A DNA stretch of 37,330 nucleotides from a virus, in the IMG/VR virus record IMGVR_UViG_3300025543_000083, positions 1 through 37,330 of that record. One strand, 5' to 3'. Of this stretch, positions 8,472 to 24,940 are shown piece by piece; the first letter of the stretch is position 1, and each line of letters starts with the position of its first letter. The notes below the pieces were generated by a model, which was given only the letters and a program-made list of their open reading frames with translations, had not been told where the DNA came from and made no database searches. The translations under genes were made by a program, and so were the position numbers.

Positions 8472-11400
8472 TTAAAATTTAGGACCTGTAGTATATGCTC
8501 CCGGGTTGTAGACAGGTTGGGCTGGTGGTGCTGTATAAGTATACCCTGACAGGTAAGTTTTATATTCTTTAGCTCTTCTATTAACTAATCCTGGTACAAA
8601 TCCTACAAATCCTTTAGCTGTAGTTCTGTAAATAAGGATAACCTCTGCTGCTTCTCTATACTGTTTTTTATTAATTCTTTCTCTAAGAGGAGTACGTCCA
8701 GTGGTTTTGGATGAATCGCCTATTGAACCTGCATTCCAAGCAATACTTACTAGAGCATCAAATTCTTCTTGTCTTAGAGGAACATTAATCGCATTTTTAA
8801 CTCTATTTTCATATTCAGTTATTTGCTTTAGTAAAAGAACATCTGCTTCTGCTTTAGTCATAGTACTATCCCATTTTAATTCAGGGAATGTAGGTTTAGT
8901 AAACCCATACCCTATAGTAAGGGTTCCTTGAATTGGGGTTGATGCTGTAAGAGTTGCGTTTGGTTGTTTATCATCATATGCGTTTGAGCGAAAACCTTCT
9001 ACTTTTTTAATATTTTCTAATTCTGTTTGACTTATTTTAAGATTTGAAATTTCTATTCTCCCAAGTGAATTATATGCTTCTACCTCTTTTTGATTAAGAT
9101 TAGCTATATTAGTGTTTGTAATCTCAGTATTCACTGTATTTAGAACTGCAAAACTTAAAAGAGAAGCATCAAATGGTGCTGTTTTGGGGACTGAAATTGT
9201 ATGTAATGATGTACCCCAATTATTACTAGATATATCGTGGTTTACTTTTGTAATTATAAAGTTTAAAGCAATTGGGTATTGTCTAGGTAAAAATCTTTGA
9301 TTAATTGATAAAGCATTATAAATTTTAACTCCAGATAATCCATCAATAGTTAAACTTAAATCCGCAGGAATAAAACCTATAGTATTTGATGGGTTTTTCG
9401 ATTGATTATAAACTTCATTATTAACACCAGTAATAAAACTTTTAAATAAAGTTTTTCCTAAACTATAAAAATCATCATTTAGATAAAAATATAAAGCGCT
9501 ATATTTAAAATTTCCCTTTGTATTTCCCCCAAAAGCTTCAAGTAACCATCCTAAATAATTGGTAAGTGGTTTTGGTTTTTCCTTAGATGGTTTGTCTTTA
9601 TTTATTATTTGTTGTATTCTTTTCCAGCCTTTTGCTTCTCTTACATATTCTGCCCAAGTTACATTTCCATAATCTCTCTGAGTAACAGGACATTCGTCAA
9701 CATCTTTTACTCCTGTGTTGGTAATTCCATATATCGTGGTTTCTTTTTGGTCTCTTGCAAACCAATCTAGACCATCCATCCAATCAGGTAAATAACTTTC
9801 ATCTACAACACATTTATTAGGGTCTTTCCAATGTTTAGACATTTTTACTAAGTTCTCTGCTGTTAAAGGGAAGTGTTCTGGAGTTGATCCTGAAATGTTT
9901 AAAATGGTTTCATCGGGGTCATCATAAGTGATAGCATAGGCATCTTCTAACCCATCATTCCATTTAGAAAAAGCAGTACCATCATAGTTTTTTGTAGTTT
10001 TATTTTGAGCAGTAGCACCAACAGTAATCATACTGGCTAATTCAGGACCTATTTTAGTCTTAAATCCAAAATCTCTTACAAAATTTGAAGTTGAACCTGA
10101 AGGTGAAAATCCATAAATTTCAAATGGGACCGTTTGACCAAATCTATTCTTAAATTTTGTTGAAGTTTCAATTCCAGGAATAGGATTTTGATCTATTATT
10201 TTTATTATATTATCATCTTCTATAATAGGTTCAAGTTTATTAATACCCCCTAAAGAAGAGTTTATATTATTACATATATCTTCTAAAAATTTATAAATAC
10301 TTATTTCTCCATCATTTGTATTTTTTTGGAGTGTATTTGAGATAAAATCGTAATTTAGGTAAATATTCATAATATTACCATATAATACATTTGTATCTTT
10401 TTCAACTTCAAAAAAATCTTTTAATTTAGTAAAAGAACCATGGTCGTTTTTAACTGCAGTAGGTTTATTTTTATAATCTTGTTTACTCCTTAAACTAATA
10501 TTTTCTGAAAATTGGGGTGCTATTAAGCATACTTTAGGATTAAAAGAAATTTGGTTTGGAAAAGCTGAACATATACTATCTCCGGACACGTCAAATTCTA
10601 ATATTTTACCACCATTAATTGAAGGGACACATAAGTTATTTAGTTTCTCTAATAGTGCACTAAAAGTTAAAAAATAGGTGTATTTATTACTGTCTACTCC
10701 TGTAGGGGGGTATTGTAATTCTTTATTTTTCTCTTTTTCCTCTTCAGTCTGTTCTTTAATTGTAAATTCTTTGGCATAACCTGCATTTGCAAACCATGAA
10801 TAATAATTAGTTTTCCAACCCCACCACTTATCCGGGGTACTTGAAGCTATATCATTATATAAGTCAAGGGATAACGTAGATGATCCAGCATTAGTAACAA
10901 TAGGACTTTCAACATCTAATAGTTTATTTGTAGCTTTATTACCTGCGGTAAATATTTCGTCTAATTGAGCAGCTGTAGTTAATTGAGAAGGTAAATTTAC
11001 TTTTAAAGATTCAATAACATCCCCTATTGTAATTAATTTTAAAGTTATGTCATAAGTACCATCAGGTTGAAAGCTCCAATCAAAGTTAACTACTTTTCCT
11101 AAAAAACCATCGTAATTTCCATCATAATCTCCCCTATATCTAGCAATAGCTTTTATAACTTTTCGATAATTATATGTAGAAAAATCTTGAAACCATAAAT
11201 CTTCAGTTAAAGTATTCCCTACATGTTTGAAATTCTCATCTTTATCTAAGTATTTATCCCATCCCCATTCTAATAACATACTATACCCTAATCTTAAATA
11301 TAAAAGTTCTATTAACTCAAATTGAAATAAATTATATGCTTTTAATTCTACTGTTGCTTCCCGAATTGAACCTCGATTTTTACAATCAATTTTAGCTGAT

Positions 11401-11903
11401 ATTAAACCCGGGGCAGGGACAATACCAAAGTCTGTTCCTCCTAACCCATAACTATTATCATTCCATAAACTGTTAGTTGAAGATACCCCAAATCGAGAAA
11501 TATGGGACCCTTGTGAGGTTTTTTCATTTTTATCATTATAAGTTGATGGGTTTATTTCTGTAAGAGTATTAAATAGAACAGCTTTTCTTGCTAATTGGTT
11601 TCCTGTAAATTCACCTGTGTTATTTATTCCTATATCTCTTAATCTTTGTTCTCCTGAACTGATAGTTGAATCTTCAAATTCTTTAGAACCTGTATTATAA
11701 GTGGCAATAGAATTAGTATTTGCTTTTTTTTCTTCATCAGTTTGACTTACAATTCTTACTGAGGAAGCAAGTTTTAACCAAGCATTATTATTATTTAATA
11801 GGATAAGATCAGTATTATCCCTCGCTTGCTTTCCTTGTAATCTTTGTCGTACTTGGATTTGTAGAGCGACGAAAGGATCTATTTTTTCTCCTATTATACT
11901 CAT
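8472..11903 (-). CDS. Baseplate hub protein with C-terminal GH24 lysozyme domain
   Basis: This 1143-residue protein joins a large hub-like region to a peptidoglycan-cleaving domain. Residues about 844-906 (DLSLTIDGLSGVKIY, LPRQYPIALNFIITKVNHDI, NNWGTSLHTISVP) match the pattern of tail-hub proteins of the T4 gp27 type. Residues about 955-1119 form a GH24 (T4 lysozyme-like) domain with the catalytic triad pattern E969, D978 (EGFRSNAYDD) and T996 (LTIGYGF), plus the core helix EEFDALVSIAWNAG. The segment between D978 and T996 is 12 residues longer than in T4 lysozyme. A short Pro/Tyr tail ends the protein. In T4 the hub (gp27) and the lysozyme (part of gp5) are separate chains; here they appear fused. 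It probably makes a local hole in the cell wall during injection. Confidence 0.85.
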   Translation of the reverse strand: MSIIGEKIDPFVALQIQVRQRLQGKQARDNTDLILLNNNNAWLKLASSVRIVSQTDEEKKANTNSIATYNTGSKEFEDSTISSGEQRLRDIGINNTGEFTGNQLARKAVLFNTLTEINPSTYNDKNEKTSQGSHISRFGVSSTNSLWNDNSYGLGGTDFGIVPAPGLISAKIDCKNRGSIREATVELKAYNLFQFELIELLYLRLGYSMLLEWGWDKYLDKDENFKHVGNTLTEDLWFQDFSTYNYRKVIKAIARYRGDYDGNYDGFLGKVVNFDWSFQPDGTYDITLKLITIGDVIESLKVNLPSQLTTAAQLDEIFTAGNKATNKLLDVESPIVTNAGSSTLSLDLYNDIASSTPDKWWGWKTNYYSWFANAGYAKEFTIKEQTEEEKEKNKELQYPPTGVDSNKYTYFLTFSALLEKLNNLCVPSINGGKILEFDVSGDSICSAFPNQISFNPKVCLIAPQFSENISLRSKQDYKNKPTAVKNDHGSFTKLKDFFEVEKDTNVLYGNIMNIYLNYDFISNTLQKNTNDGEISIYKFLEDICNNINSSLGGINKLEPIIEDDNIIKIIDQNPIPGIETSTKFKNRFGQTVPFEIYGFSPSGSTSNFVRDFGFKTKIGPELASMITVGATAQNKTTKNYDGTAFSKWNDGLEDAYAITYDDPDETILNISGSTPEHFPLTAENLVKMSKHWKDPNKCVVDESYLPDWMDGLDWFARDQKETTIYGITNTGVKDVDECPVTQRDYGNVTWAEYVREAKGWKRIQQIINKDKPSKEKPKPLTNYLGWLLEAFGGNTKGNFKYSALYFYLNDDFYSLGKTLFKSFITGVNNEVYNQSKNPSNTIGFIPADLSLTIDGLSGVKIYNALSINQRFLPRQYPIALNFIITKVNHDISSNNWGTSLHTISVPKTAPFDASLLSFAVLNTVNTEITNTNIANLNQKEVEAYNSLGRIEISNLKISQTELENIKKVEGFRSNAYDDKQPNATLTASTPIQGTLTIGYGFTKPTFPELKWDSTMTKAEADVLLLKQITEYENRVKNAINVPLRQEEFDALVSIAWNAGSIGDSSKTTGRTPLRERINKKQYREAAEVILIYRTTAKGFVGFVPGLVNRRAKEYKTYLSGYTYTAPPAQPVYNPGAYTTGPKF

Positions 11904-14533: not shown

Positions 14534-16942
14534 CTATTGTACTTCGTATAAACCTAAAGGAGCCATTTCTGGTGTCTTCTTAAATATTTTTTCTAATAGG
14601 GCATTTGTTGTACTCATATCTGTACCTCCTCCACCTTGTCCTAAATTAGTTCCGGCTACTAAAGTATCTTGATTATTAAGTGCTATTGAACCCTTTGGAG
14701 TAGAAACAATACGATCCCCATAACCCGCAGGGATAACACCATCATCCATTGTTTTTGCTTTGGAGCCTGCTGAAGACATTGCTGCTACTACTCCTGCTAT
14801 ACCTGCAGCAATTGCAATAGCACCTATACCCAAGGTTGCAGCTGATGCCGAAGTTACAGCTGCTATCGCCCCTGTTATTAAAGCTGGAAGTTGTGCTGCT
14901 GCTGCTATACCTGCTCTAATTAAACCCGGAACTAGGGATCCTACTACTGCTATACCTGCTACTGTTAATGCTGCCGCTATACCAGCAGTTACTGGTCCCA
15001 TATTTGCTAATGTTTCTTGTAAGGATACAGTAGGGTCAATAATTGCATTTATTATTTCAGATATACCATTAAATCCTTCTAAAATTGGAGTTATTAAGAA
15101 AGAAATCATTTCTATAGCGGGTACAAGTAAATCTATTATAGGAGAAATCATTTCCATTATAGGGGTTACAAGTTGTACAAAAACATCTTTAATCTTCATC
15201 ATTATAGCTTCGAATTTTTCAGCTTGACTATTTTGTTCTCTTAATCCTTCAATACCATCTTTTTCTAATTCAGCTGTTGCCTGGGCTAAACCTACCTCTT
15301 TTATCCTAGCATTTAATAATTTTTCTTTTTCCTTTGCTTCATCTCCTGTAGCTCCTGCTAATTGTTCTTGAACAAATAAAGTTTCTGCTAAACTATCTCT
15401 ATTCATACCAACAGATTTAGCTAATGCATCTTGTTGTAGTCTATTCATTTTAGAAAAATCTGCAGAGGAACCTATTTGATCTGATATTTCTTTAGCTACT
15501 GTAGCTAGATCATTGTTTAAAGCTGCCTGTCTTGCTTTTTCTAAGTTAATATCCTTACCTAACAATAATTCAGCTTGTAATTCGTTTTCAATGGAGGATT
15601 CAAAATCAAGTAAACTATCTGCTATGCCTTCAACTTTAGACATTTCCATACCTAAAGCTTTAGCAGTTGCTACTGCCTCACCTATTAGTGCAGGGTTTTT
15701 ACCAAATGATAATGTAGTGGCTGCTGAAACTTTACCTATATCTTTTAATAGTGATTTTTCATTTAGTAAAACACCATTTTGCATTGCTGACATTTTAGCT
15801 TGAGCCATAAACTCACCTGTAATGTCATTCATAGATTTGCCTGTAGCTAATGAAATATTATTAATGCCTATTAATTCTTCATTAGTAAATCCTGCCATGT
15901 CTCGCATTTCAGTAAATGCAATAGCGTTTTCACCTGCTAAAACAACACTAGTTCCTAGAGCATTGTTTATAGCCATTTGGGATTCTTGTATTCCCTTAGT
16001 AGTAACAAAAATATTTCCAGAATCATTAGCTTGCTTTGCAAATTCTTTCCTAGTTGCTAGAGCTTCAGTATAGCTCATATTTAGATTCTTAGCTAAATCA
16101 CCTGCCCCAGAATCTACCCCTTTTATAGCATCTATAAGTTGATCACCTAAAAATTTAGCTAATGCTAAGGGATCTGTAAGGTTCTTCATCATGGATTTAC
16201 CCAATGAACCTATACCTGCTTTTAAAATTTGTACTTTACCCCCAAACGTTGCTGTTTCTGTCCCCCCTTTAGTAACTTCATCCGCTACTTTAGACATTGC
16301 ATCTTCAGCATCCTTTATTCCCAGTTGGTCAACCAGACCACCCATTCCTAATTTATCTAAGGCGGATTTAAGACCACCAATCATAGCACCCCCTAGACCC
16401 ATAGCATCAGAAATTTTTTCTTCTTCAGCAAGTCTTTTTTTAGCAGTAGTTAATAAATCATTATATAAAACATTTTCATTTGCTAAAGTTCCTTCAATTT
16501 CAACTAAAGCTGCTAATTCTCTATCAGTTATTGAATTAGCATCATATTTTTGTTTAAGATTTGTATAAAGGGTTTTTTGGTTTTCTTTTTCAGCCTTAAT
16601 TTTATCTTGGATAGATATTAATTCTTTTTTACTAAGTTTATTAATACCTACTTGATCATTTTGTAGTTTTTGGGCTAAACCCGATAGGGCATTAAATGAT
16701 TTTTTTGCATCCGCTAGTGGTTTACTAGTTTTTTGCATTTCTTGAACTACATTTTTAAAACCTGAAGCGATACCTGAAATATCATTAGTAGCATCTTGAA
16801 GTTCTTGTTTAAGGGATTTAACAACTCTTTCAGCCTCATTAAGTTCCTTAGTATCAAATATTTTAATCTGCTTACCACCCAATTGCTTATTAAGTTCTTG
16901 GATTTGGTCATTAAGTTTTTTTATTTGGTCTAGGGCCGCCAT
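14534..16942 (-). CDS. Tail tape measure protein
   Basis: This 802-residue protein should set tail length and occupy the tube lumen. The N-terminal 180 residues are heptad-rich coiled coil (DQIKKLNDQIQELNKQL onward). The middle is helical, and residues about 580-718 are very hydrophobic with Ala/Gly/Ile-rich segments that may enter the host membrane. The end has the DDGVI...KGSIALNNQDTLVAGT pattern (about 733-766) seen near the C-terminus of many tape measure proteins. Its length is in the range of T4 gp29 (590) or longer. The position directly after the frameshifting chaperone pair is the canonical location, and those chaperones would coat it during assembly. A late promoter motif lies 17 bases before the start. 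Confidence 0.88.
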   Translation of the reverse strand: MAALDQIKKLNDQIQELNKQLGGKQIKIFDTKELNEAERVVKSLKQELQDATNDISGIASGFKNVVQEMQKTSKPLADAKKSFNALSGLAQKLQNDQVGINKLSKKELISIQDKIKAEKENQKTLYTNLKQKYDANSITDRELAALVEIEGTLANENVLYNDLLTTAKKRLAEEEKISDAMGLGGAMIGGLKSALDKLGMGGLVDQLGIKDAEDAMSKVADEVTKGGTETATFGGKVQILKAGIGSLGKSMMKNLTDPLALAKFLGDQLIDAIKGVDSGAGDLAKNLNMSYTEALATRKEFAKQANDSGNIFVTTKGIQESQMAINNALGTSVVLAGENAIAFTEMRDMAGFTNEELIGINNISLATGKSMNDITGEFMAQAKMSAMQNGVLLNEKSLLKDIGKVSAATTLSFGKNPALIGEAVATAKALGMEMSKVEGIADSLLDFESSIENELQAELLLGKDINLEKARQAALNNDLATVAKEISDQIGSSADFSKMNRLQQDALAKSVGMNRDSLAETLFVQEQLAGATGDEAKEKEKLLNARIKEVGLAQATAELEKDGIEGLREQNSQAEKFEAIMMKIKDVFVQLVTPIMEMISPIIDLLVPAIEMISFLITPILEGFNGISEIINAIIDPTVSLQETLANMGPVTAGIAAALTVAGIAVVGSLVPGLIRAGIAAAAQLPALITGAIAAVTSASAATLGIGAIAIAAGIAGVVAAMSSAGSKAKTMDDGVIPAGYGDRIVSTPKGSIALNNQDTLVAGTNLGQGGGGTDMSTTNALLEKIFKKTPEMAPLGLYEVQ

Positions 16943-16971: not shown

Positions 16972-17271
16972 CTACTTATAACTTGTTTTACCCTTATATG
17001 GTTTAGAGGCAGCAGCAAAATCTGGGGTGTTGATCTTACCATCAGGGTTAATCATATTTTTTGTTCCTTTACCTTTACTATTTGACTTTTCGTATTCATC
17101 CTTTTCATTTTTATAAAATTTATCTATTTCAGAAAATGTATATTTACGAAGCCATATAGGCATATTATAAACAGAATTATAGTCATATCCTCCCTTACCA
17201 TGGAATAAAATTTGGTGGATTTGAGAAAAAAGAGATTTTCTAAATAAAGGTGCTGTATTAATAGTCAGGCC
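16972..17271 (-). CDS. Distal (T-like) half of tail assembly chaperone, reached by frameshift
   Basis: This reading frame has 99 sense codons from the T-run at 17272-17278 to its stop. It begins GLTINTAPLFRKSLF and continues SQIHQILFHGKGGYDYNSVY before reaching the first ATG at 17163 (MPIWLRKYTF). The 36 codons before that ATG are open and encode a plausible helix-rich sequence continuing without a break into the ATG-started part. I read this as the downstream half of a frameshift fusion with the gp26-like gene, giving a product of about 337-338 residues, analogous to lambda gpG-gpGT. The C-terminus is Lys/Gly/Asn-rich. The alternative is an independent 63-residue protein from the ATG at 17163. 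Confidence 0.7.
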   Translation of the reverse strand, partial: GLTINTAPLFRKSLFSQIHQILFHGKGGYDYNSVYNMPIWLRKYTFSEIDKFYKNEKDEYEKSNSKGKGTKNMINPDGKINTPDFAAASKPYKGKTSYK

Positions 17272-17986
17272 AAAAAAAGTTTAGGCCAATAGGGACCTCT
17301 ACCTCCTCTCCTGTATCTAAGATGTAGGATAAGTTTACATCTGGTTGAGTATTTTTGATATGGTCTCTAAAAGCACGAGAATCTCTAGCTAAAAAATAAT
17401 TATCAACAAAGTCTCTAATGTCTTTTTTTTCATCTTTTCCGTCTACTGATAATATCATATGTTTTAATCTTGTAGATAATTCGGGAGATACATCCTTATT
17501 TATTTTCTTTAAACCTGCTACTTCTCTATTTATTTGCTTTTCATCAAAGCCTGTAATGAGTTTATATGTAATTATTGTACCTGTTGATGGTAAAGTATAT
17601 GAAAATTCATTTTTACCCGCTTCAAATTCAGATTCATCAAATTCTTTGTTTTCTAATGTAGAACAATCTATAATATGGGATTCACCTTTTATTTTTACTT
17701 CATAATCTTTACCATACCCTAAAATACGAGAAGCTATTAATAATGAGTTTTTATCTCCTACTATTAAATCATCGATTTTAATATTTTTATCAACAATTAA
17801 AGAGTCCAATAATTTATCTAATACTGTACCTTTTTGGATGTAAGATTGATTAGATAAAATATCTTCTTCCCTAGCAGTCATATATTTCATTTCTACTTTA
17901 CCGCTTGATAGTGGATTGTCTTTTGAATAAATCAGACCTTTAGAAGGTAATTCAACCTCTTCGGTTGGGAATTTAAATTCGCTCAT
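17258..17986 (-). CDS. Tail/baseplate assembly chaperone, gp26-like
   Basis: This 242-residue protein resembles the T4 gp26-like baseplate hub assembly proteins of marine T4-like phages. The N-terminal pattern is FPTEEVELPSKGLIYS, KVEMKYMTAREEDILSNQSY, then DDLIVGDKNSLLIASRILGYG. It most likely acts as a chaperone for the tape measure protein and hub and not as a mature virion part. The ORF ends ...IGLNFFWPDY, and codons 237-238 lie in a run of seven T; slipping there by +1 or -2 joins it to the frame at 16972-17271. It is the first gene after the tube terminator, with a promoter-like element at 18021-18031 and an A-rich leader. Confidence 0.8.
   Translation of the reverse strand: MSEFKFPTEEVELPSKGLIYSKDNPLSSGKVEMKYMTAREEDILSNQSYIQKGTVLDKLLDSLIVDKNIKIDDLIVGDKNSLLIASRILGYGKDYEVKIKGESHIIDCSTLENKEFDESEFEAGKNEFSYTLPSTGTIITYKLITGFDEKQINREVAGLKKINKDVSPELSTRLKHMILSVDGKDEKKDIRDFVDNYFLARDSRAFRDHIKNTQPDVNLSYILDTGEEVEVPIGLNFFWPDY
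17272..17278 (-). promoter_or_regulatory. Putative translational frameshift site (T7 run)
   Basis: The coding strand reads AAC TTT TTT TGG, seven consecutive T just before the 0-frame stop four codons later. A +1 slip of the Phe tRNA from UUU to UUU before the UGG codon, or a -2 slip, enters a frame open for 99 codons. A -1 slip hits a stop after two codons (TTG GCC TGA). Confidence 0.6.
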
Positions 17987-18037: not shown

Positions 18038-18063
18038 AAAAAAAAGCTTGGCCGAAGCCAAGC
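18038..18063 (-). terminator. Intrinsic terminator after the tail tube gene
   Basis: A 7-bp stem GCTTGGC / GCCAAGC with a tetraloop (18046-18063) is followed on the coding strand by eight T (18038-18045). It lies about 34 bases after the tube stop codon. High tube expression with read-through control before the chaperone gene would be expected. Confidence 0.85.
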
Positions 18064-18096
18064 AATTTTCAAAAGGAAGGGTAAAAAAATTATTTT

Positions 18097-18585
18097 TTAG
18101 AAATTTAATATACAATAATCAGGTTGTACTGTTATTTGTAATTCAACAGCAGCACTTTCGTTATCCCAATTGTAATCTCCAAAAGTAGCTTCTGTAATCA
18201 TTGCTCCTTTGATAATCCATTCAGATACGATATCACCTACAGGTCCTAATACGTTCATAGTTAAATCTTTTTTATAGAAATCACTATACCCATCTCTACC
18301 TGTTACAGATTCGTGGTGTAGTCTAACCCACTCCATTACTGCTTGAGCACCACTTGGAGTAATTGGATCAAATAACGTCATTTGAATTGTATTCCAAAGT
18401 GTTTTACCTTTAACATATCTTGCAACGTTAATATGGTTCAACTGAACTGATCCTTGAGTTAATGAAACAGCTCCCATACCTTTAATTTGGTATGAAGGAA
18501 TCCCATCAACATACATGATAAATCTGTTCTGTTGCTTTGGCTCAAAAGCTGTATAAAATATTTCGTTTGGGTCTAATACTGCCAT
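18097..18585 (-). CDS. gp19: Tail tube protein, gp19-like
   Basis: This 162-residue major tail tube protein is essentially the same length as T4 gp19 (163). The start MAVLDPNEIFYTAFEPKQQNRFIMYVDG and the later pattern LMITEATFGDYNWDN-like (here MITEATFGDYNWDNESA) followed by VELQITVQPDYCIL are typical of T4-type tube subunits, which stack as hexameric rings. The gene follows the sheath gene, as in T4 (18 then 19). It has its own late promoter motif 14 bases before the ATG and a strong terminator after it, so it can be made as a separate abundant mRNA. Confidence 0.93.
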   Translation of the reverse strand: MAVLDPNEIFYTAFEPKQQNRFIMYVDGIPSYQIKGMGAVSLTQGSVQLNHINVARYVKGKTLWNTIQMTLFDPITPSGAQAVMEWVRLHHESVTGRDGYSDFYKKDLTMNVLGPVGDIVSEWIIKGAMITEATFGDYNWDNESAAVELQITVQPDYCILNF

Positions 18586-24352: not shown

Positions 24353-24940
24353 TTATTGAGGTATTTTATCGCTTTTTAACCTATTTTCAAGTGCCTCCAT
24401 AGGCTGTGTGTTAGTATAATGAAAACATTCATATAATTCTTTTTCATTATTTAAATCAAAAGAGGCTATAGGTTTAATATGGTCAATATGCCAATAACCC
24501 CCTTGATTGTCCCAATTCATTTTATCATCAAATTTTGATTCTAAGTAATTACAATAATCACCTATAGAACAACCTAGATATTCAATGGTTCTGTCTTTTT
24601 TTAATACTTGGTAAGTTTTTAAAGCCTCATGAATTCTGGTAGATGTTATATGTTTAATTCTGTAGGGTAGGTTTGTTGCGTATCTTTCTCTTTCCCATTC
24701 TCTGTATAATTCTTTATTGGTGTGGTAGTGGTTGTGGGAGTAGTTGTTAAAATATTTTTTATTTTCCTTTCGGTAGGTTTTGTAGTATTCTGCCCTGTCG
24801 TTTTTAGATGACTGGTAGTATTTTTTACTTTCTTTAAGTTTACAATCTTTACAATATATGTGTCTACCATCGGGTTTAGCTTTATTAACACAAAAATTAT
24901 CTATAGGTTGGGGTTGGTTACATCTTTTACATTGTTTCAT
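24353..24940 (-). CDS. Free-standing HNH endonuclease with N-terminal zinc ribbon
   Basis: This 195-residue protein has a Cys4 zinc-ribbon at the N-terminus (C4, C7, C30, C33: CKRC and CKDC), then a basic Lys/Tyr-rich helical linker (about 35-90). The C-terminal HNH nuclease site has HIDHIKP (H151, D153, H154) and downstream NTQPMEALENRLK with N177. This is the architecture of phage homing-type endonucleases that nick DNA near their own gene. It sits alone between the capsid gene and phoH, with a promoter-like motif before it and a strong terminator after it, and the same 12-mer flanks both ends. It is probably a selfish insertion in the head-tail cluster. No intron or intein partner is visible. 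Confidence 0.9.
   Translation of the reverse strand: MKQCKRCNQPQPIDNFCVNKAKPDGRHIYCKDCKLKESKKYYQSSKNDRAEYYKTYRKENKKYFNNYSHNHYHTNKELYREWERERYATNLPYRIKHITSTRIHEALKTYQVLKKDRTIEYLGCSIGDYCNYLESKFDDKMNWDNQGGYWHIDHIKPIASFDLNNEKELYECFHYTNTQPMEALENRLKSDKIPQ

Follow-up and report, generated by a model that had tools for sequence, protein, structure and literature searches.

A conserved slip site and a predicted +1 frameshift in the gp26-like tail assembly chaperone gene of environmental T4-like phages

The chaperone gene and its surroundings

The window analysed here is a stretch of 37,330 nucleotides, positions 1 to 37,330 of IMG/VR virus record IMGVR_UViG_3300025543_000083. It contains T4-like head genes (gp23 capsid, gp20 portal, prohead protease and terminase) and tail genes in the order sheath, tube, chaperone gene and tape measure. 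The features of the chaperone region are as follows.

18097..18585, minus strand: tail tube protein (gp19-like), the upstream gene
18046..18063, minus strand: hairpin resembling a terminator, with T8 after it, in the gap from the tail tube gene to the chaperone gene
17258..17986, minus strand: gp26-like tail assembly chaperone, short form, 242 aa in the 0 frame, stop TAA at 17260-17258
17301..17307, minus strand: Shine-Dalgarno-like AGGAGGT, candidate stimulator, 22 nt before the slip codon
17283..17298, minus strand: small inverted repeat AGGTCCCTATTGGCCT just 5' of the T-run, uncertain candidate stimulator
17264..17281, minus strand: slip site AAC TTT TTT TGG CCT GAC, conserved in 252 non-redundant relatives
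17278-17272, minus strand: T-run
17278-17276, minus strand: proposed slip codon, the first TTT
17265..17267, minus strand: TGA closing the -1 frame right after the T-run
16972..17274, minus strand: +1-frame extension, 100 aa and then a stop
14534..16942, minus strand: tape measure protein, 802 aa, the downstream gene

The downstream gene was identified from its product, which in an alignment of 579 columns is 30% identical (E = 1e-55) to the protein annotated as tape measure in Flavobacterium phage immuto; the product of the upstream gene was recognised by its matches to phrog_4542 (E = 3e-22) and Pfam Phage_T4_gp19. An element similar to the terminator-like hairpin between the tail tube and chaperone genes was present in 189 of 201 relatives, and the record of Bacillus phage SP-15 also annotates a terminator between these two genes. 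Sub-threshold Rfam matches near 18040-18100 reflect this hairpin; a match to SNORD115 was taken as chance.

The short form matched phrog_150 (baseplate hub, gp26 family) at E = 2e-9 in the window and down to 5e-15 in relatives, while Pfam and PDB sequence searches with the chaperone returned nothing significant. Separate AlphaFold models were built for the short form and for the extension. The model of the short form (pLDDT 91.9) matched gp26 and baseplate hub models of T4-like phages, including gp26 of Aeromonas phage 25 (E = 2e-4). The best two of 990 PDB chains compared with its N-terminal domain were 3fgx (Z 6.2, rmsd 3.8, 84 aligned) and the HK97 tail assembly chaperone 2ob9 (Z 4.8, rmsd 4.2, 82 aligned), both below the decisive level; at the level of the model, the resemblance of this domain to the HK97 chaperone is suggestive.

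The 3' end of the short-form ORF (17986-17258, minus strand) reads GGC CTA AAC TTT TTT TGG CCT GAC TAT TAA, with four codons (TGG CCT GAC TAT) between the T-run and the 0-frame stop. The numbers of the original prediction all hold when read from these letters and those which follow: the ORF ends four codons after a run of seven T, a -1 slip (TTT TTG GCC TGA) stops at once at 17267-17265, and the frame entered by a +1 or -2 slip is open for 99 codons when counted from GGC (100 from the slip point), of which 36 on the same count precede the first ATG, at MPIWLRKYTF. It also placed the gene pair before a tape measure gene, which is where the gene identified above lies. The +1 (= -2) frame has a TAA just 5' of AAC and is open from 17274 to a stop at 16974-16972; the short N part and the extension together give a predicted long form of 337 aa. 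A start of its own for this frame, at a TTG upstream of the T-run, was considered and rejected because that frame hits TAA immediately in the window.

Two further minus-strand ORFs in the window may be mentioned. The one at 8472-11903 encodes a protein of 1143 aa in the baseplate region, whose residues 966-1113 form a phage lysozyme domain at the C-terminal end; it is probably a tail-lysozyme fusion. The other, at 24353-24940 between the capsid and PhoH-like genes, has paired CxxC motifs (MKQCKRCNQPQPIDNFCVNK) and by eye appears HNH-homing-endonuclease-like; a Pfam search with it gave no match. No tRNA genes were found in the window.

Conservation of the slip site and of the extension

Scanning of viral contigs yielded 306 usable relatives, of which 252 were non-redundant; no relatives were found in plasmids. 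The exact TTTTTTTGG (252 relatives) or TTTCTTTGG (39 relatives) was present at the site in 291 of the 306, and once close variants were added the same architecture was found in all 252 non-redundant loci, with the consensus [T/C]TT [TTT/CTT/CTA] [TGG/TAY] CCN. The original prediction had proposed an alignment of related phages; in ours the site and the part of the extension before the ATG are conserved, and the T7 run itself is found in 214 of 252. The remaining slip sequences were TTTCTTT (n = 32), TTTCTAT (n = 3) and CTTTTTT (n = 3). Codon 1 was TTT in 249 relatives, CTT in 3 and TTC in none, although TTC makes up 19-20% of Phe codons elsewhere in these genes; clustering at 60% identity gave 41 groups, and TTC stood at codon 1 in none of them. 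The slip codons are followed by TGG (n = 247) or TAC/TAT (n = 5) and then by Pro, encoded by CCT in 251. The -1 frame ends at the same place, three codons on, in 224 of the 252 relatives, and the base before the T-run is a T in only 1 of 241, which indicates that the -1 heptamer U_UUU_UUU is avoided.

A single stretch encodes both the 0-frame motif F-[FL]-[WY]-P and the +1-frame motif [FY]-[GTI]-L, and Asp in the overlap is written GAC in 195 of 196 cases, compared with 19% in the rest of the genes. We attribute the fixed CCT and GAC to the overlap coding in both frames, and this dual coding itself speaks for translation of the +1 frame ahead of the 0-frame stop. The same layout was found in the isolated phages Flavobacterium immuto, Microcystis Mel-JY01, Rhodothermus RM378, Bacillus SP-15 and Listeria LIS04. 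Sites in distant homologues were TTT CTA TTC (LR756508), TTT TTT CAC (SP-15), TTT TTT AGT (LIS04) and TTT TTT TGG (RM378), and that of GXN1 was TTC TTT CGT.

We aligned 237 complete extensions from the relatives, which were 66-115 aa long and had the consensus FGLT..YR..LF.QIH.IVFHG.GGY...TVYNMPIWLR.FT; an alignment in which short forms and extensions were separate rows misaligned the extensions and was left out of the results. Between the slip and the methionine of MPIW, pN/pS was 0.28 in the +1 frame vs 1.29 and 1.81 in the other two, and by this measure the extension is under purifying selection as a protein before any ATG. An ATG was present in 220 of the 237 extensions, usually at MPIW, and absent from 17; where it is present, a shorter, internally started product could conceivably be made as well. 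Only one match was returned when a second full-length extension-bearing gene was sought in the 37-kb record, which may be a fragment.

The extensions of some relatives weakly matched phrog_634 (baseplate hub assembly catalyst, gp51 family) and phrog_32580 (tail assembly chaperone). Foldseek/VIA searches with the extension model gave no convincing relative: its best viral match, A0A343LED7 of Leptospira phage LE4, was not significant (E = 0.5). The structure-match list of the short form includes A0A343LED6 of the same Leptospira phage (E = 8e-5), a weak coincidence between models which would point toward the same pairing. Pieces of the extension are annotated as separate hypothetical proteins in the records of immuto, Mel-JY01, SP-15 and RM378 (L160:4839-4949; L161:4737-4973; L325:3312-3431; L324:3201-3377), and in this way current records misannotate the predicted long chaperone as separate hypothetical ORFs.

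The proposed shift and its alternatives

The programmed frameshift put forward in the original prediction is strongly supported by conservation across the 252 non-redundant relatives, and we infer that a frameshift-extended product is almost certainly made from this gene. The locus shares with frameshifted chaperone pairs in general the gene position, a conserved overlapping ORF which needs no start codon and a conserved slip-prone site shortly before the 0-frame stop. As to mechanism, we give a probability of roughly three in four to the gene making a short and a long chaperone by a ribosomal shift in which tRNA-Phe slips +1 at the first UUU. Most ribosomes would read to the 0-frame stop and produce the 242-aa short form. 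A minority would slip at AAC UUU UUU UGG, where the P-site peptidyl-tRNA-Phe on the first UUU would re-pair one base forward on UU(U/C); the slipped ribosome would then read the next UUU followed by GGC CUG AC..., 100 codons in total, to give the 337-aa long form. If the roles of lambda gpG/gpGT carry over, binding of the tape measure protein would fall to the part common to both forms, and recruitment of the tail tube to the extension.

All 252 relatives allow +1 re-pairing at codon 1 (UUU to UUU/UUC, or CUU to UUU); at codon 2, the 3 TTT CTA loci permit re-pairing neither by +1 nor by -2. Where isolates or complete phages carry a different site (RM378, SP-15, LIS04, LR756508 and GXN1), it is in every case UUU-Y and +1: GXN1 fits +1 at codon 2, as UUU-C, and the other four fit +1 at codon 1. 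Given these re-pairing fits, the avoided -1 heptamer and the broken T-runs, a +1 shift at UUU-Y is the most economical mechanism. It should be noted that several points count against +1. In E. coli, +1 shifting at UUU-U is reportedly far weaker than at CUU-U (PMC5009743); the A site holds UUU, CUU or CUA rather than an in-frame stop; and no significant downstream RNA structure was detected at the slip site (mean z -0.3 to -0.9).

Candidate stimulators lie upstream. A Shine-Dalgarno-like motif was found at -45..-15 in 162 of the 252 relatives (64%) compared with 1.2% of control windows in the same genes, and the end of its AGGAGG is mostly 22-28 nt from the slip codon. GAG makes up 88-90% of Glu codons at -30/-27 (background 17%) and GGG is found at -9 in 58% (background 6%); dual coding does not explain these codon choices. 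The spacing of 22-28 nt is farther than that of any Shine-Dalgarno stimulator known to us, and a stretched contact is expected to pull backwards, which would suit a -2 shift and also counts against +1. The inverted repeat is a less certain candidate: upstream stem potential was above that of codon-resampled controls (p < 0.05) in 20% of relatives vs 3% of control windows, a modest signal which was not significant in the TTTCTTT group.

The original prediction had left the shift as +1 or -2; the frame which these share is borne out, and between them +1 at the first UUU is favoured. In a -2 ribosomal shift, tRNA-Phe on the second UUU would move back two bases onto UUU and add one extra Phe, with the distant Shine-Dalgarno-like element, whose conserved position fits this direction, supplying backward tension. 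Such re-pairing is possible in 249 of 252 relatives, including the window itself, and would account for the constant TTT at codon 1 in the main group; there is precedent in the -2 shift of phage Mu in the equivalent genes and in the documented -1/-2 shifting on a U6A site (PMC5009743). However, the TTT CTA variants, LR756508 and GXN1 do not allow -2 re-pairing, their extension frame is unchanged and they do allow +1 re-pairing, and we therefore consider a -2 shift unlikely. Slippage of RNA polymerase, dropping one U or adding two at the T7 run with the aid of the small upstream hairpin, appears still less probable. The T7 run occurs in 214 relatives with an upstream inverted repeat, and a Roseiflexus IS630 element provides a documented case of slippage stimulated by a hairpin (PMC5009743), but the run is broken in 35 of 252 relatives (TTTCTTT and TTTCTAT) and reduced to TTT in LR756508 and GXN1, all with the same +1 extension, and the hairpin signal is as modest as described above.

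Translation of the downstream ORF from a start of its own (MPIWLRKYTF...), giving two separate genes, would agree with the ATG that the window and many relatives have at MPIW and with the GenBank records of immuto and Mel-JY01, which annotate separate small ORFs. Against it, +1-frame selection begins well before that ATG and reaches into the 0-frame overlap, where GAC is all but invariant, and 17 relatives have no ATG anywhere in the extension; we regard this as very improbable. The original prediction had itself named two outcomes which would speak against it, homologues with clearly separate genes and no similarity before the ATG, and a re-sequenced run of six T making a simple fused gene. 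The former is excluded by the conserved extension with its low pre-ATG pN/pS. The latter is excluded too: homopolymers are error-prone, but an error of sequencing or assembly, like decay of a fused gene, is refuted by the same state in 252 non-redundant metagenomic loci and several isolates, including versions free of a homopolymer.

Relation to other tail assembly chaperones

The +1 shift proposed here has counterparts and contrasts in several known systems. As for lambda gpG/gpGT, the gene stands before the tape measure gene, the slip lies near its 3' end, a short and an extended product are predicted and the extension has no start of its own. Lambda, however, uses a -1 shift on a heptamer, whereas here the shift would be +1 at UUU-Y in a protein of the gp26 family, and lambda-type -1 entry into the extension through an X_XXY_YYZ heptamer was not seen. 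Phage Mu (-2) and haloarchaeal HSTV-2 (+1) reach the same relative frame in equivalent genes at different sites, and re-pairing of the Mu type is not available in every member of our group. The review of Atkins et al. (2016) calls the shift in the tail chaperone of HSTV-2, a haloarchaeal myovirus, 'very likely +1' and puts the +1 shifts of Listeria phage PSA, which the original prediction had cited as a precedent, in the capsid and major tail protein (tail shaft) genes (PMC5009743).

Within the T4-like phages, the window protein shares the gp26 family (phrog_150) with T4, and the weak matches of some extensions to phrog_634 are to the gp51 family. In T4, as in Salmonella phage CGG4-1, gp26 and gp51 are separate genes, full-length and without a shift in T4, whereas the window phage is predicted to use one frameshifted gene. 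In cyanophage-type loci, T_TTT_TTC lies close before the stop with a gp51-like extension in the -1 frame (79 of 79 non-redundant), and S-SKS1, S-RIM2, HTVC008M, phiM7, Aeh1, YB07 and KVP40 have T_TTT_TTC or T_TTT_TTT with a -1 extension; this set of -1 loci comprises cyanophages, pelagiphage HTVC008M, KVP40, Aeh1, YB07 and phiM7 (L329, L331-L410, L328, L414-L419). The gp26 homologue of Vibrio phage D494 (L420) ends TCA CTT TTC AAG TAA, with an open -1 extension and no U_UUU_UUC heptamer.

Cyanophages, KVP40 and Aeh1 have in common with the window group a homologous upstream protein, a slip in the same terminal Phe-Phe motif and a similar conserved extension core, but they differ in having U_UUU_UUC/U, a T before the run and a -1 rather than a +1 extension. 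In hhalign comparisons the +1 and -1 extension profiles were linked (probability 61%, E = 8e-5), as were the +1 long form and the KVP40 long form (262 columns, 63%, E = 7e-5), and the cyanophage profile matched KVP40 at 99.6% and T4 gp26 at 93%. Compared directly by hhalign, the +1 long form gave no significant match to T4 gp26 or gp51; its link to them runs through phrog_150, KVP40 and the cyanophages. These profile comparisons give moderate support to homology between the +1 and -1 kinds. A large environmental T4-like branch would on this basis keep a +1 shift in the homologous gene and other branches a -1 shift at the same motif, so that the two-gene arrangement of T4 looks like one of several solutions. 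It is also conceivable, though less likely than not, that +1 shifting at UUU-Y in this very large group proceeds with neither stop nor downstream structure, stimulated by the Shine-Dalgarno-like element 22-28 nt upstream, and that +1, -1 and gene duplication have been exchanged at the same Phe-Phe motif within one chaperone family.

According to a 2022 paper, T4-like phages reportedly make these tail-chaperone proteins another way. The statement in the original prediction that T4-like phages are not generally described as frameshifting is partly true: the review of Atkins et al. (2016) has tail-chaperone frameshifting conserved in long-tailed phages 'except T4' (PMC5009743), but Vladimirov 2022, as cited in the PRFect paper, found both short copies and long, fused ones in some T4-like phages (PMC10885494), and poly-T -1 slippery sequences in T4-like chaperone genes are mentioned with the same citation in another paper (PMC12846349). 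The -1 shifting of T4-like phages may already have been described; we found no published description of the +1 group in these sources, Vladimirov 2022 being represented among them by the papers which cite it.

The E. coli RF2 gene (prfB) resembles the locus in that both involve a +1 P-site slip on a YUU-U type codon, here as predicted, and three of the relatives have CUU-U. RF2 has a stop in the A site and a Shine-Dalgarno sequence ~3 nt upstream, whereas neither is present here and the Shine-Dalgarno-like element is far more distant. A +1 shift at UUU-pyrimidine in E. coli argI, attributed to Schwartz and Curran, is said to involve tRNA-Phe slipping from UUU to UU(U/C) with no stop codon; there it is an error or a test system, whereas here the site is conserved in hundreds of phages. 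The 252 sequences form a natural set in which a +1 site can be studied in the absence of the stop codon and nearby Shine-Dalgarno sequence that RF2 has.
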